Below, piece by piece: positions 9,697-14,607 of a stretch of DNA of 58,003 nucleotides (the stretch's first letter is position 1; the number at the start of each line of letters is the position of its first letter). The stretch comes from a bacterium. GTDB taxonomy: Bacteria > SM23-81 > DAOVCL01. The position numbers and the translations under genes are program-made. The DNA lies in the NCBI GenBank assembly GCA_029932675.1, contig JAOZPP010000012.1:2096-60098 (forward strand), in the 5' to 3' direction. The notes beneath the pieces were generated by a model that saw only the letters and a program-made list of their open reading frames with translations, was not told where the DNA came from and did no database searches.

Positions 9697-10142
9697 CCTC
9701 CCCGCTTTTCTGAATTTTCTGGTGGCCAAAGCTTCACGGCCTTTTTCCGACTTACTAAAGGAGTTCCATGTTCCACCTGACCGTTTGAGCTGTATTGACC
9801 TGACCCGATCCACTTTGTAGCCTCGTATTCTGCCTCGTTGGAGGACAATTTAGTCCACTTCCAAATAGCAAGGCTTCCTGACTTGGGAGAGCCCCACGGT
9901 TTCTCAAATTGTCCATCCGAGCTGTATACAACGAGGAGGTCCACATTTGACCAGTGTAACTCTTTGTCCAGTCGTAATTGGTTAAAAGTTTCCCGATCAG
10001 CGAAGACAATAAAGTCCCAATCAGAGCTTTCCCTCTCTTCACTATTTGCACGAGAACCAATAAGCCATACCGAACGTATACCTGGGTAGCGAGCTACCAG
10101 AGTGCATAAGTATTCTCTAATTTTTGGTTCGATTTTTGGCAT
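9693..10142 (-). CDS. MNT-type nucleotidyltransferase domain protein
   Basis: 149 residues. Near residue 28 is GSRA, followed by SSDWDFIVF, the GSxA...DxDh signature of minimal nucleotidyltransferases, and a third acidic strand (NVDLLVVY) supplies the last metal ligand. Many such proteins are MNT antitoxins that AMPylate a HEPN toxin, but no HEPN gene is adjacent. It lies 53 bp downstream of the helicase-PLD gene and overlaps trmO by 4 bp. The C-terminal 50 residues show no domain. No good ribosome-binding site precedes the ATG. It may be a partner of the helicase or a toxin-antitoxin leftover. Confidence 0.7.
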   Translation of the reverse strand: MPKIEPKIREYLCTLVARYPGIRSVWLIGSRANSEERESSDWDFIVFADRETFNQLRLDKELHWSNVDLLVVYSSDGQFEKPWGSPKSGSLAIWKWTKLSSNEAEYEATKWIGSGQYSSNGQVEHGTPLVSRKKAVKLWPPENSEKRGG

Positions 10143-10195
10143 GGAGATATCTCAAGTATTATTGGACAAGACGATCCAGAAAGGTTTTTGCATCA

Positions 10196-13100
10196 TCAGC
10201 AATCGTCCCTATATTCTTTTAGAATTTTCAACACGATATCCTCATAGCCTCTAATGTTAGTTCTGTTTCTCATGAATTCTGGTAGTGACAGAAGTTGTTC
10301 AACGGTTTTGGGAGGATCGTTAAGCAGATTTTCAATAGTGTCGTTAAACAAAACAGCAAAGTTGGGAATTCTTTTATCATCCGCAATTACCCATCTCAAT
10401 TTCTTAAGCATGCTTCTGTAATATTCTTTTACCTCTCGTTTGTTTTTTGGCAGTTCCCTGTGTTTTGGACGCACCCTGTCCAAGATGTTTTGGAATTTTT
10501 GGGGGGGTAAAACAGGCTTTAATATATATCCACTTTTTGTAAGACACTCGCGCATCTTTGGGTCCTTCGCTAAAACAGAAAACACCTTTTGCAACTTAGA
10601 CTTGCTGTCGCTTCTAATCATCATTTCTTTTGAACTATGATTGAATGAAAGCACATTTAGACTGCCTGCATATAATATGTGGCCGTCTATAGCAACTATC
10701 TTTTCATGTGTTCCGTAGCGTTCCTGTATTTTTATCCCTATATTTTTTAGTGCACGGTATAAGCCTTCTAACTCTCGCTCTCTGCTCATTTGTTCCCCTG
10801 GCGGTTTAGTGATTATCCCAACATTTACTCCTCTTGATAAGAGGTCCGTTAAGTAAGGCATTAACTTTTCTATGCGATTGGTGGTCATATAGCCAGATAT
10901 AAAGAGGACCTCTTTTTGCGCGTTTTTCAAGTCTTGAATGAGACTTGGATAGAAACTTTTCTGGTTAAATACCGCTTCTTTCCTTAACAGTTCTTCTACG
11001 TTGAACAACGCAATATCCGGATATTCCTCTGTTGGCACATAATATGGGACGAGGGTAGAGCTGTCTATAAATTGTCCACGCTTCAACAAATCGGCTATAA
11101 TCTTTCTAAGCACTGATCCTTTGGGTAAGTTATTCAGCATAAGTTGGTTATGGGATATTATCACCAGTTTTTCCTGTGGCCTTGAGAATGCAACGGTAAG
11201 TAATCTTCTTGCTTCGTTTTCACTTTGGTCTTTCTTCAAGTAGAGCTCATGTTTATCATTTAGTAATATGCCAATCTTCCTCGTGCCTAATGCTTCCACA
11301 AGGTCGAATATTATGTACCTCTTTTCTCTACCCTGAAAGGTGTGAACTGTTCCCACCTCAACATCTTCCCACCTTGATTCTTTTAACATTTCTCTTAAAA
11401 AGCTGGCTTGACTTCTATAAGGTGTTATGATTCCTATATCTTTCTGTTCAATGAGATTGCCTTCAATCAAATCGTGAAGCACCTTTTCAACCACCTCAAC
11501 ATTGTACAGGTTATAACGAGACCTCCGTTTTGGCCCTAACTTTTCAGTTGATACACAGGCATTAACCTTGGTTGTGTCAATAATTACCACTCTATGTTTA
11601 GGCATTGGAATCAAAATGTTGTCATACTTACGGTAATCTTTGTCTATTTCAGGTCTTGTGTTATATAAATTTCCGTAGAAATTGAGATTTACGATTTTGA
11701 ATATCTCATCGTGCATTCTGTATTGAAGGTTTAGACTTTCAATGCGTGGGTCATGTGGCCTATTCTCTGTTGCATTTGCCTCTTGAAATATGTCCCTCCC
11801 AAGCCACTTTTGGGCAGCGTCCGTTGCTGCTAATTTTATGGGTGCTAACTGGCGTGGATCTCCGAAAATCGATACTTTTTCTTTTGCTAAGGAGCATACA
11901 TAGAAAACCATTGGTAAAGGGGCAATACTGGCTTCATCAATGAGGACAACATCAAACCGTATACCCGATAGTATCGGATCAGTAAAGGTCCTTGCTAATG
12001 TACTCACTATCACCTTTGCATTATCTAAGATTCCTTCATTTAATTTGGAGATTCTGTCATCAATTTCTGCAATCTTGGTTTTAGCGTTCTCTAAAGTGCC
12101 TTCTGTCTTTTTTAGAACTTCTTCAATCTGCTCTAAATTTTTACATTGTGGAAGCTTCATAGATGCTTTTGATACCAAGGAATTAAGCTTTTGTAGTTCA
12201 GCAGAAAGTAATCCCAGCCGCTTCTCTTCTTTAAATCTGTTTTTGGTTTCACTCGTCTTTTCGTTTTCCAAGTGGACAATCTCTAATCTGAGATTTTTGG
12301 GCCTTGTCCCTTTCAAAAAGTTAATTATTGCATTTCTTCCCTCTGCAATGGATAAAAGTTGCTTTTTTTGAGAAATAATCTGATTCAATTCTTCTTCTCG
12401 TTGAATATATCCTCTGATAAGGTCTTCACTCTCAATAATATTTTCTTTACAATTTTCTACGCGCTCTGCCAAATTTCTATGTTCTAAAAATCTTTGTTTA
12501 TATCCGTAATATAGTTCGTTCTTCTGCATTAAAGAATTCATCAAATTATTCAATCTTTCCCTTTCTTCCCGTAAATCTCTGCTCAGGTTTTCGCGTATTT
12601 CTTCAATGGTGAAGGGTTTTACATCCTGTAGGACTGGTGTTCCTATCCTGACTATTTCTCCGTCCTTGAGGAGATTTTTAACTGTTGCTTCGTGCCCATA
12701 TTTGAGAAAGTGCTTTATCACATTGTCACAAGCAACATTGGTATGACAAGACACTAAAACCTTCTTCCCATTGTTGGCAAAGTCATTGGCCACATTAACA
12801 AGTGTCCTTGTTTTCCCAGTGCCAGGAGGGCCATGAACAAATGCTACTTCATTTCCAAGGCAAATTTTCATAGCTTTTGTTTGAAAGTCATCAAGGTTCT
12901 TCTCGTCGGTATCTGTTAAAATAAAAACAGGTTTTCCTTCCGAGCACTTTAAAGGTATGCGATTGAATGTTTTAAGCGCTAAATCAACATCCTGAGATTC
13001 CAGAGACGGCAATGCCTCTTTCAATTTTCTTAGAACATAAGTTGCATCAACACTTAAAAGAGCAGATGGAATCTCTTCTTCCTCAAAATCCCATATGCGG

Positions 13101-13660
13101 ATTTCTAATTTGAAGTCTAAGAAACTAACGATTGTTGCTCGGTAGTTCTTTCCCCTAATCTCTATTTGGGCAGGGGTTTCATCAATGACCGGCACTTTTC
13201 TTTCTATATTAAACCGATATATACCGTATCCAGCTATTTCCCCTACCAATTTGCCGTCTTTTAACATTACACTTATATTTCCGCCTCGAGTTTTTACGAC
13301 CTTAATTTCATCTTCTAATGCCTCATCAAATTCAGCTAATAACTCACTAACGATGTTTGATGCTTCTTCGCTTTGTAGTGGATATCTAAAATATGTTCCA
13401 CATTTTGGACAAGTAACTTGTAAAGTTTCTGTAGTGTTGGGTATTCTTAATTCTTGCCCGCAATCTGGATTCGGGCACACGATAACAATTTCATCCTTGA
13501 TGGTTTCTTCTTGTAGCTCTTCTACGCTATGAAGAGTTCCCGTGTCTTTATCAAAGAAGAAGGTTTCAGAGCAATCATCATAAGGGCAGTCATAGTACCC
13601 TGATTCTGAAACATCCTCCATATCCAATTCTTTTCCACAATAGGGACAGTTTCTAATCAT
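10196..13660 (-). CDS. Zinc-ribbon / SF1 helicase / PLD nuclease / HRDC protein, Mokosh type II-like
   Basis: 1154 residues. Residues 1-95 hold paired CxxC motifs (CPYC, CPYDDC, CPNPDC, CPKC), i.e. zinc ribbons. Then comes an SF1B (Upf1/DNA2-like) helicase: Walker A GPPGTGKT near 280, Walker B LIDEAS near 573, GDPRQLAP near 602, QYRMHDEIF and GTVHTFQGRE near 775. A coiled coil of about 200 residues is inserted after motif Ia. Near 987 is a single PLD motif HEKIVAID...GSLN. The last 70 residues resemble an HRDC nucleic-acid-binding domain. One-gene helicase-PLD fusions of the COG1112 type are known as anti-phage Mokosh type II; assignment here is by architecture only. The gene is visibly AT-richer than its neighbours and uses more A/T-ending codons, suggesting transfer. 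Confidence 0.8.
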   Translation of the reverse strand: MIRNCPYCGKELDMEDVSESGYYDCPYDDCSETFFFDKDTGTLHSVEELQEETIKDEIVIVCPNPDCGQELRIPNTTETLQVTCPKCGTYFRYPLQSEEASNIVSELLAEFDEALEDEIKVVKTRGGNISVMLKDGKLVGEIAGYGIYRFNIERKVPVIDETPAQIEIRGKNYRATIVSFLDFKLEIRIWDFEEEEIPSALLSVDATYVLRKLKEALPSLESQDVDLALKTFNRIPLKCSEGKPVFILTDTDEKNLDDFQTKAMKICLGNEVAFVHGPPGTGKTRTLVNVANDFANNGKKVLVSCHTNVACDNVIKHFLKYGHEATVKNLLKDGEIVRIGTPVLQDVKPFTIEEIRENLSRDLREERERLNNLMNSLMQKNELYYGYKQRFLEHRNLAERVENCKENIIESEDLIRGYIQREEELNQIISQKKQLLSIAEGRNAIINFLKGTRPKNLRLEIVHLENEKTSETKNRFKEEKRLGLLSAELQKLNSLVSKASMKLPQCKNLEQIEEVLKKTEGTLENAKTKIAEIDDRISKLNEGILDNAKVIVSTLARTFTDPILSGIRFDVVLIDEASIAPLPMVFYVCSLAKEKVSIFGDPRQLAPIKLAATDAAQKWLGRDIFQEANATENRPHDPRIESLNLQYRMHDEIFKIVNLNFYGNLYNTRPEIDKDYRKYDNILIPMPKHRVVIIDTTKVNACVSTEKLGPKRRSRYNLYNVEVVEKVLHDLIEGNLIEQKDIGIITPYRSQASFLREMLKESRWEDVEVGTVHTFQGREKRYIIFDLVEALGTRKIGILLNDKHELYLKKDQSENEARRLLTVAFSRPQEKLVIISHNQLMLNNLPKGSVLRKIIADLLKRGQFIDSSTLVPYYVPTEEYPDIALFNVEELLRKEAVFNQKSFYPSLIQDLKNAQKEVLFISGYMTTNRIEKLMPYLTDLLSRGVNVGIITKPPGEQMSRERELEGLYRALKNIGIKIQERYGTHEKIVAIDGHILYAGSLNVLSFNHSSKEMMIRSDSKSKLQKVFSVLAKDPKMRECLTKSGYILKPVLPPQKFQNILDRVRPKHRELPKNKREVKEYYRSMLKKLRWVIADDKRIPNFAVLFNDTIENLLNDPPKTVEQLLSLPEFMRNRTNIRGYEDIVLKILKEYRDDC

Positions 13661-13731
13661 TGCATGTCATCATTGAGATTATTATTTTTCTCGCTTGGAC
13701 TGGTTCCTACTGTGCCATCAAGGGGCGCCAA

Positions 13732-14607
13732 CTACCGCACTAATACCATCTTCCTCGTCTTTTCTACCTTAAACCTATCATCTGCCACCTTTAACCTACA
13801 GAAGTAGACCCCACTGGATACTTTTCTGCCTGAGTCATCCCGCCCGTCCCACAGAACTCGGTAATTACCCCCAGGTTGCTTCTCATCCACCAAGGTTCTC
13901 ACCACTTGCCCTAAGATGTCGTAGACCTTGAGGGTGGTGCGGTGTGGCCTGATCCCTGATAATTGATAGCTTATTACTGTAGTTGAATTAAAGGGATTTG
14001 GATAGTTCTGGGATAAGGCAAAATCCTGAGGCAGGCCAAGATTGTTATCTCCTGGCTCATGTACTCCTTCCCAATCCCAACTTACAACCTTGGCATAAAT
14101 GTCCCAGCCTTTGGAGCGACGGGCATCCTCCCAGGTAAAGACGATTCTATCATTGTTGAGGGCTATCGAGGGATGTAGTTGATCTGGATTAGGCACATCT
14201 GGCCTTTGATTGACCAAGTAGTTCCCTCCCCAGCGGGTGCCATCAGCGTGGTATCGTTGAGCATAGATATCCCACTCACCATTGCGTTTATCTCCCCAAC
14301 AGATGACGAAATTACCCGATGAGTCGATGGCAATGGCGGAAGACCACTGATCACATCCACTTGTTGTGTCGTCATTGACGAGGAAGTCGTCCTTGATAAT
14401 GCCAAGTATTGTGCTTGCTCCCTCTGGCTTGAGCGGCCTTCCTGCTGATGGTGATGTAAGTAGTTGATGGCTTCCTTTCAATCTATGGTGAGGAAAGCCA
14501 CTCTCACCATCTATCGAGCAGAACTGGGCAAGGCAATGGCTCGCTGCTCCCAGGGGGAGCAGGAGCGTGAGTGAAAGAGTGAAACTTGCCTTATGCACCT
14601 TTCTCAC
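13732..14607 (-). CDS. Secreted protein with YPNPFN C-terminal sorting/FlgD-like domain
   Basis: 291 residues. The signal peptide has a long hydrophobic core and likely ends at CLAQ near residue 28. The middle has two short repeats of the type SIALNN-DRIVFTWEDARRS and AIAIDSSGNFVICWGDKRNGEWDIYAQ, a pattern seen in beta-propeller-like surface proteins. The last 90 residues are a typical FALSQNYPNPFNSTTVISY start followed by KVYDILGQVVRTL and SGVYFCRLK, as used for export and cell-surface sorting in Bacteroidetes-like bacteria. It is short for its kind, so it may be a reduced version of a longer protein. It has an unusual structured leader (14682-14749). Confidence 0.75.
   Translation of the reverse strand: MRKVHKASFTLSLTLLLPLGAASHCLAQFCSIDGESGFPHHRLKGSHQLLTSPSAGRPLKPEGASTILGIIKDDFLVNDDTTSGCDQWSSAIAIDSSGNFVICWGDKRNGEWDIYAQRYHADGTRWGGNYLVNQRPDVPNPDQLHPSIALNNDRIVFTWEDARRSKGWDIYAKVVSWDWEGVHEPGDNNLGLPQDFALSQNYPNPFNSTTVISYQLSGIRPHRTTLKVYDILGQVVRTLVDEKQPGGNYRVLWDGRDDSGRKVSSGVYFCRLKVADDRFKVEKTRKMVLVR

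Follow-up and report, generated by a model that had tools for sequence, protein, structure and literature searches.

The window analysed here, a stretch of 58,003 nucleotides, contains a minus-strand ORF of 1154 residues with an ATG start (10196-13660), in which helicase and nuclease domains are joined. The question raised by this locus is whether its product belongs to a known anti-phage system, is a housekeeping enzyme or represents something else. A preliminary description, made from the sequence alone, had likened the protein to Mokosh type II, perhaps as a distinct subtype. From the N- to the C-terminus, the query protein has two C4 zinc ribbons, a stalk helix with a beta-barrel, an Upf1-like SF1 helicase, a PLD domain with a single HKD motif and an HRDC-like end (Table 1). 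Our preferred reading, to which we assign a probability of about two in three, is that it is a horizontally acquired defence helicase-nuclease acting as a single protein in the way proposed below, with a Mokosh II-like build and a place on a separate helicase branch.

Table 1. Features of the locus in window coordinates, with the evidence for each
Feature	Position	Strand	Evidence
Inserted segment, ~4.0 kb, against ~110 bp in the same-genus genome G001	9714..13744		blastn of the window against L077
Pol-beta/MNT-type nucleotidyltransferase, 53 bp downstream of the helicase-PLD gene, in the inserted segment	9693..10142	-	Pfam Polbeta 1.1e-8
Zinc-ribbon / Upf1-like helicase / PLD / HRDC protein CDS, 1154 aa	10196..13660	-	ORF; full-length ortholog L043, 68% identical; dN 0.20, dS 1.6
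First C4 zinc ribbon, residues 1-40, C5/C8/C25/C30	13541..13660	-	sequence; all Cys kept in L043
Second C4 zinc ribbon, residues 58-95, C62/C67/C84/C87	13376..13489	-	sequence; kept in L043
Stalk helix and beta-barrel, residues 97-222, domain 1B position of UPF1/IGHMBP2	12995..13372	-	model secondary structure; structural alignment
RecA1, first part, Walker A GPPGTGKT at residue 277	12626..12913	-	Pfam AAA_11; motif
Long antiparallel coiled coil, residues 352-542, at the place of the 1C insert	12035..12607	-	AlphaFold2 model
RecA1, second part, Walker B DEAS (575), GDPRQL (600)	11801..12028	-	Pfam; motifs
RecA2, TVHTFQG (771), LTVAFSR (821)	11111..11773	-	Pfam AAA_12 1.2e-34
PLD nuclease domain, residues 895-1035	10556..10978	-	Pfam PLDc_2 7.3e-13; profile against solved structures
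Single HKD motif HEKIVAIDGHILYAGSLN, residues 985-1002	10655..10708	-	catalytic positions invariant in 17 aligned relatives
HRDC domain, residues 1062-1152	10205..10477	-	Pfam HRDC; lone-domain model; VIA; 77% identical to L043

Insertion site and downstream nucleotidyltransferase gene

The single chain and the AT-richer island of the preliminary description were both borne out. The helicase-PLD gene has a GC content of 0.38 and a GC3 of 0.36, against 0.49-0.55 and 0.51-0.65 in the flanking TrmO, ROK, T9SS-like and MutS genes. The same-genus genome G001 keeps the order MutS, T9SS-like protein, trmO and ROK kinase, but there the T9SS-like gene and trmO are separated by only ~110 bp, whereas the window carries the helicase-PLD gene and a nucleotidyltransferase gene between them. 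The gene is a recent insertion in its chromosome. No terminal or direct repeats of at least 9 bp common to both junctions were found, and we therefore name no type of mobile element. The other three genomes of the query's phylum contain no match to the gene, whereas a counterpart in a Desulfobacteraceae MAG (L043), i.e., in another phylum, shows 68% identity along its full length and shares the eight zinc cysteines and the HRDC end. Considering this close counterpart together with the empty G001 site, the low GC content and the absence from the three phylum genomes, lateral acquisition is the simplest account and is likely. A phage-borne origin was also considered and is unsupported, because the helicase and PLD matches in viral contigs and phage records were all partial. 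The T9SS-like sorted protein has 291 residues in the window (13732-14607) and 972 residues with many repeats in G001 (L077 5697-8615).

The nucleotidyltransferase matches the NCBIfam model MntA_antitoxin at 30 bits, under the cut-off of 60, and PADLOC PDC-S09 at 25 bits. Its gene has no recognised HEPN partner, and the 3' end overlaps the start of trmO. Lying on the same strand as the helicase-PLD gene across a 53 bp gap and inserted together with it, the nucleotidyltransferase might modify and control the nuclease in a two-gene system, and an MNT gene is found near the Desulfobacteraceae counterpart as well. However, that MNT gene lies ~4.5 kb upstream with other genes between, its product is only 34% identical over 62 residues, and it is the one PDC-S09 member in the neighbour tallies of the other relatives. 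The nucleotidyltransferase as a partner is possible but unproven, and we regard a two-gene system of this kind as very improbable.

Domain architecture of the helicase-PLD protein

The N-terminal zinc-binding motifs of the preliminary description are present, but they form a pair of C4 ribbons and are not zinc knuckles, and the ortholog has all eight ligand cysteines. The Pfam matches to AAA_11 (4.3e-31), AAA_12 and PLDc_2 are all well over the cut-off. In a full-length AlphaFold2 model (mean pLDDT 74.8), residues 101-876 superpose on IGHMBP2 (VIA Z 30.0, 575 residues, rmsd 5.8) and residues 100-872 on UPF1 (VIA Z 28.4), with the alignment beginning at query residue 100-101 against residue 295 of UPF1 and residue 3 of IGHMBP2. 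By these superpositions, the beta-barrel corresponds in position to domain 1B and the coiled coil to the 1C insert. The insert comprises ~190 residues, modelled as helices 352-441, 454-501 and 509-542, and the stalk and barrel region also occurs in the relatives L020-L022 and L017. With a RecA1/RecA2 core, the 1B stalk and barrel, the 1C insert and the SF1 motifs all present, the query is an Upf1-like SF1 helicase carrying a long coiled-coil insert, in agreement with the preliminary description.

The single HKD motif that had been noted consists of HEKIVAID at residue 985 and GSLN at residue 999, and H985, K987, D992, G999, S1000 and N1002 are the invariant positions. On these residues, the domain fits the pattern HxK(x4)D(x6)GSxN of the single-HKD PLD superfamily. 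The best solved relatives of the PLD profile were NucT, mitochondrial cardiolipin hydrolase (PLD6/Zucchini) and the Nuc endonuclease, although these matches were weak (E 0.004-0.08). All three of these single-HKD proteins are nucleases. Because the motifs are intact and conserved, the query would be expected to function as both a motor and a nuclease.

The C-terminal domain matched Pfam HRDC at residues 1085-1131 with an E-value of 7.7e-5 and 23.0 bits, just short of the cut-off of 23.8, and the RecQ HRDC structure 1wud at E 0.03. When the last 125 residues were modelled alone (pLDDT 79), the helices were ordered as in HRDC. Foldseek by itself ranked the HRDC domain of WRN first, but with a poor E-value of 1.0. 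After VIA realignment of the Foldseek candidates, the best four were all HRDC domains, from WRN (Z 6.8), BLM, EXOSC10 and RRP6 (Z 5.4), although such Z scores are modest for a helical bundle and the assignment calls for some caution. The corresponding region of the ortholog gave no Pfam HRDC match at E 0.001. Taken together, the fold, Pfam and RecQ matches support a real HRDC domain with its five-helix fold, as had been suggested before. In the literature searched, we found no fusion of HRDC to an Upf1-like helicase and a PLD nuclease.

The query and its ortholog are 78% identical in the PLD domain, 77% in the HRDC domain, 73% and 69% in the two helicase halves and 61% in the coiled coil. The dN/dS ratio is ~0.13, with dS near saturation. 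This comparison indicates that the protein is under purifying selection and that PLD and HRDC are conserved at least as well as the helicase.

Relatives and comparison with known systems

A search with a three-sequence alignment of the PLD region found relatives at 21 loci, and a single-sequence scan of genome contigs and viral contigs found none. The N-terminal barrel region, the helicase, the coiled-coil insert and the PLD domain recur in about 20 further proteins, and those aligned are 21-26% identical to the query; L047, L055, L056 and L059 are incomplete or show no helicase in the ORF read. The relatives come from at least nine phyla, namely Pseudomonadota, Actinomycetota, Chloroflexota, Planctomycetota, Gemmatimonadota, Acidobacteriota, Armatimonadota, Tectimicrobiota and Thermodesulfobacteriota. 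Most end in Topo I-type zinc ribbons (Pfam 6.6e-7 in L020; CxxC patterns), and the actinobacterial ones in DUF5710. N-terminal zinc ribbons and HRDC occur together only in the query and its ortholog. Some relatives have a decayed PLD, such as L020, which lacks the H, and L018, which retains only a weak remnant. The proteins of L044-L063 share with the query the N-terminal region, the helicase with its insert, the invariant HKD and the clade, but differ in having no HRDC and no N-terminal zinc ribbons. No existing name for them was found in the literature searched.

In the helicase-core tree, the query and its ortholog together branch deepest in a clade that comprises the helicase-PLD proteins and a few with a decayed PLD (support 100/97, and 100/96 once long branches were removed). 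The housekeeping IGHMBP2/TIGR00376-type helicases, which share the fold of the helicase core, form a separate group adjoined by MkoA, and MkoC lies outside the query clade on a long branch. The query therefore does not fall among the housekeeping helicases, a placement that, coupled with a lack of defence neighbours, would have spoken against the claim of the preliminary description. These helicases also differ from the query in lacking a nuclease domain and, in those read, in having TVDGFQG rather than TVHxFQG as motif V.

Mokosh type II is a single gene encoding a COG1112 helicase first and a PLD domain last (PMC11672841; PMC10013915). The query has the same build, i.e., one gene with a COG1112/Upf1-like helicase followed by a PLD domain with one HKD, and in its domain composition and order the Mokosh II likeness therefore stands. 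Furthermore, hhalign aligned the family profile with real MkoC co-linearly over RecA2 and PLD (probability 99.7, E 4.6e-26), showing that the query and MkoC are distant homologues of the same design. The query could accordingly be a true MkoC subtype that degrades phage transcripts and carries extra terminal domains. However, the PADLOC MkoC model matched it only in part, at 137 bits with the best stretch at 711-1011, against 1387 bits over 1-1135 of 1136 for a true MkoC from Arsenophonus (L019) and 101 bits for the HKD-less helicase L018. The N-terminal third of the Arsenophonus protein aligns poorly, and HRDC and zinc ribbons are absent from it. A clade of the query and MkoC was rejected (AU p 0.007, and 0.019 in the tree without long branches), a result to be read with caution given that the tree covered two MkoC and two MkoA sequences and that the MkoC branches are long. 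One clade uniting all helicase-PLD proteins with MkoC was likewise rejected by the tree test. Membership of the MkoC family is thus unlikely. The HRDC and zinc-ribbon ends do set the query apart, as the suggestion of a distinct Mokosh subtype had it, but a separate helicase-PLD lineage that would work in the manner of Mokosh II is the closer description.

Mokosh type I resembles the query in that a helicase (MkoA) and a PLD nuclease (MkoB) act as a pair. It differs in being split over two genes and in carrying a kinase domain, as L064 and L065 show, whereas the PLD of the query is fused and no kinase domain is present in its gene. The PADLOC MkoA model gave 191 bits for the query, which equals the score of an HKD-less plasmid helicase, and identity with MkoA was rejected. 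In the tree, MkoA groups with the IGHMBP2-type helicases, and a grouping of the query with MkoA was rejected (AU p 6e-30).

The CnuH helicases of CoCoNuT systems carry a coiled-coil insertion behind Walker A and are tied to varying nucleases, among them PLD and Vsr (PMC11090510). The query resembles the CnuH-CnuE proteins of types II and III in being an Upf1-like helicase with a large coiled-coil insertion at this place and a tie to exchangeable nucleases. However, CoCoNuT needs the McrB/McrC-type CnuB/CnuC and usually has a separate CnuE, whereas the PLD of the query is fused, and no CnuB/CnuC (McrBC-like) partners were recognised among the genes adjoining it.

Defence-gene neighbourhoods and proposed mode of action

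Following the suggestion that relatives be checked for defence neighbours, we counted strong PADLOC hits to defence genes within ~8.5 kb of the 21 relatives. Such hits accounted for 9 of the 209 genes there, compared with 1 of 133 in the control (p 0.05), and occurred at 5/21 loci, against 1/20 control regions (p 0.10), the controls being drawn from three of the same genomes. Several relatives thus adjoin CRISPR, PglW or Druantia-like genes, but the enrichment over the control is borderline, and the GajB-type matches are partly generic. The neighbours include type I-G Cas8g and Cas3g (L050), PglW at 1523 bits (L063), a DruE-like gene (L057), a kinase-DruE-like fusion (L039), and CARF-RelE, Csx1 and a GajB-like gene with a CRISPR array ~0.5 kb downstream (L037). 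A Schlafen/AlbA-type gene lies in the vicinity of the Desulfobacteraceae ortholog, in addition to the MNT gene. The genes adjacent to the query encode the nucleotidyltransferase, TrmO and the T9SS-like protein; no clear defence gene was found around it, the sole candidate being the nucleotidyltransferase with its weak matches.

Three neighbours deserve a brief description. The fusion in L039 (1191-7514) is a 2108-aa protein with a PD-T4-6-type kinase and a DruE-like helicase, divergent from a helicase-PLD gene. Directly upstream of the ortholog, L043 5248-7317 encodes a 690-aa protein with no Pfam or PADLOC match, in which a PIN-like motif, a coiled coil and a C-terminal hydrophobic stretch were seen by eye. 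A 1405-aa ORF beside L062 was set aside, having no family match and possibly being a high-GC artefact.

The solved structures closest to the query helicase are those of IGHMBP2, UPF1, Senataxin and DNA2, and HRDC is typical of the housekeeping RecQ and RRP6 proteins, which would agree with a non-defence helicase-nuclease for DNA repair or RNA surveillance. However, the gene is missing from the other three phylum genomes and was inserted at a site that is empty in the same genus, the query lies outside the housekeeping helicase clade, and the neighbours vary between loci, several being defence genes. We therefore consider a housekeeping role improbable. The observations that favour the defence reading are the intact domains and motifs, the purifying selection, the empty G001 site, the patchy distribution over phyla and the defence genes adjoining relatives.

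The proposed working of this putative single-protein defence is a prediction as regards anti-phage activity, substrate, dimerisation and trigger. The Upf1-like SF1B motor would load on single-stranded nucleic acid and translocate with ATP. The zinc ribbons and HRDC may grip or pick out certain structures; the most probable targets are intermediates of invading DNA that are branched or contain ssDNA, and phage RNA is the alternative. The PLD domain would then cut the strand when two molecules meet; dimerisation is predicted because each chain has only one HKD, and a second PLD copy is needed for the active site. We lean towards a DNA target because HRDC and Topo I-type zinc-ribbon ends occur in the family. 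As both RNA and DNA are substrates of Upf1-like helicases, a DNA target is put forward as a lean only.

More broadly, and with slightly more doubt than belief, we suggest that the family may be a third helicase-PLD defence lineage apart from both Mokosh types. It would be a one-protein and probably DNA-directed lineage, spread over at least nine bacterial phyla, with one core and interchangeable terminal modules, i.e., Topo I-type zinc ribbons, DUF5710, or N-terminal zinc ribbons plus HRDC. If the family defends, bacterial immunity would have arrived at the fusion of helicase and PLD repeatedly and not just in a single Mokosh family, and what such a motor-nuclease recognises could be tested directly through its interchangeable termini (HRDC, Topo I zinc ribbons and DUF5710). 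The family of the query could also be mis-annotated as Mokosh by PADLOC, because the Mokosh models give moderate scores to generic Upf1-like helicases.

Other domain combinations were also encountered. L003 and L066, on long branches near the helicase clade of the query, have a PD-(D/E)xK- or Vsr-like nuclease end instead of PLD, as judged by eye only. L059 3052-3936 encodes a short protein with the same HKD region and a helix-turn-helix-like end, without a helicase.
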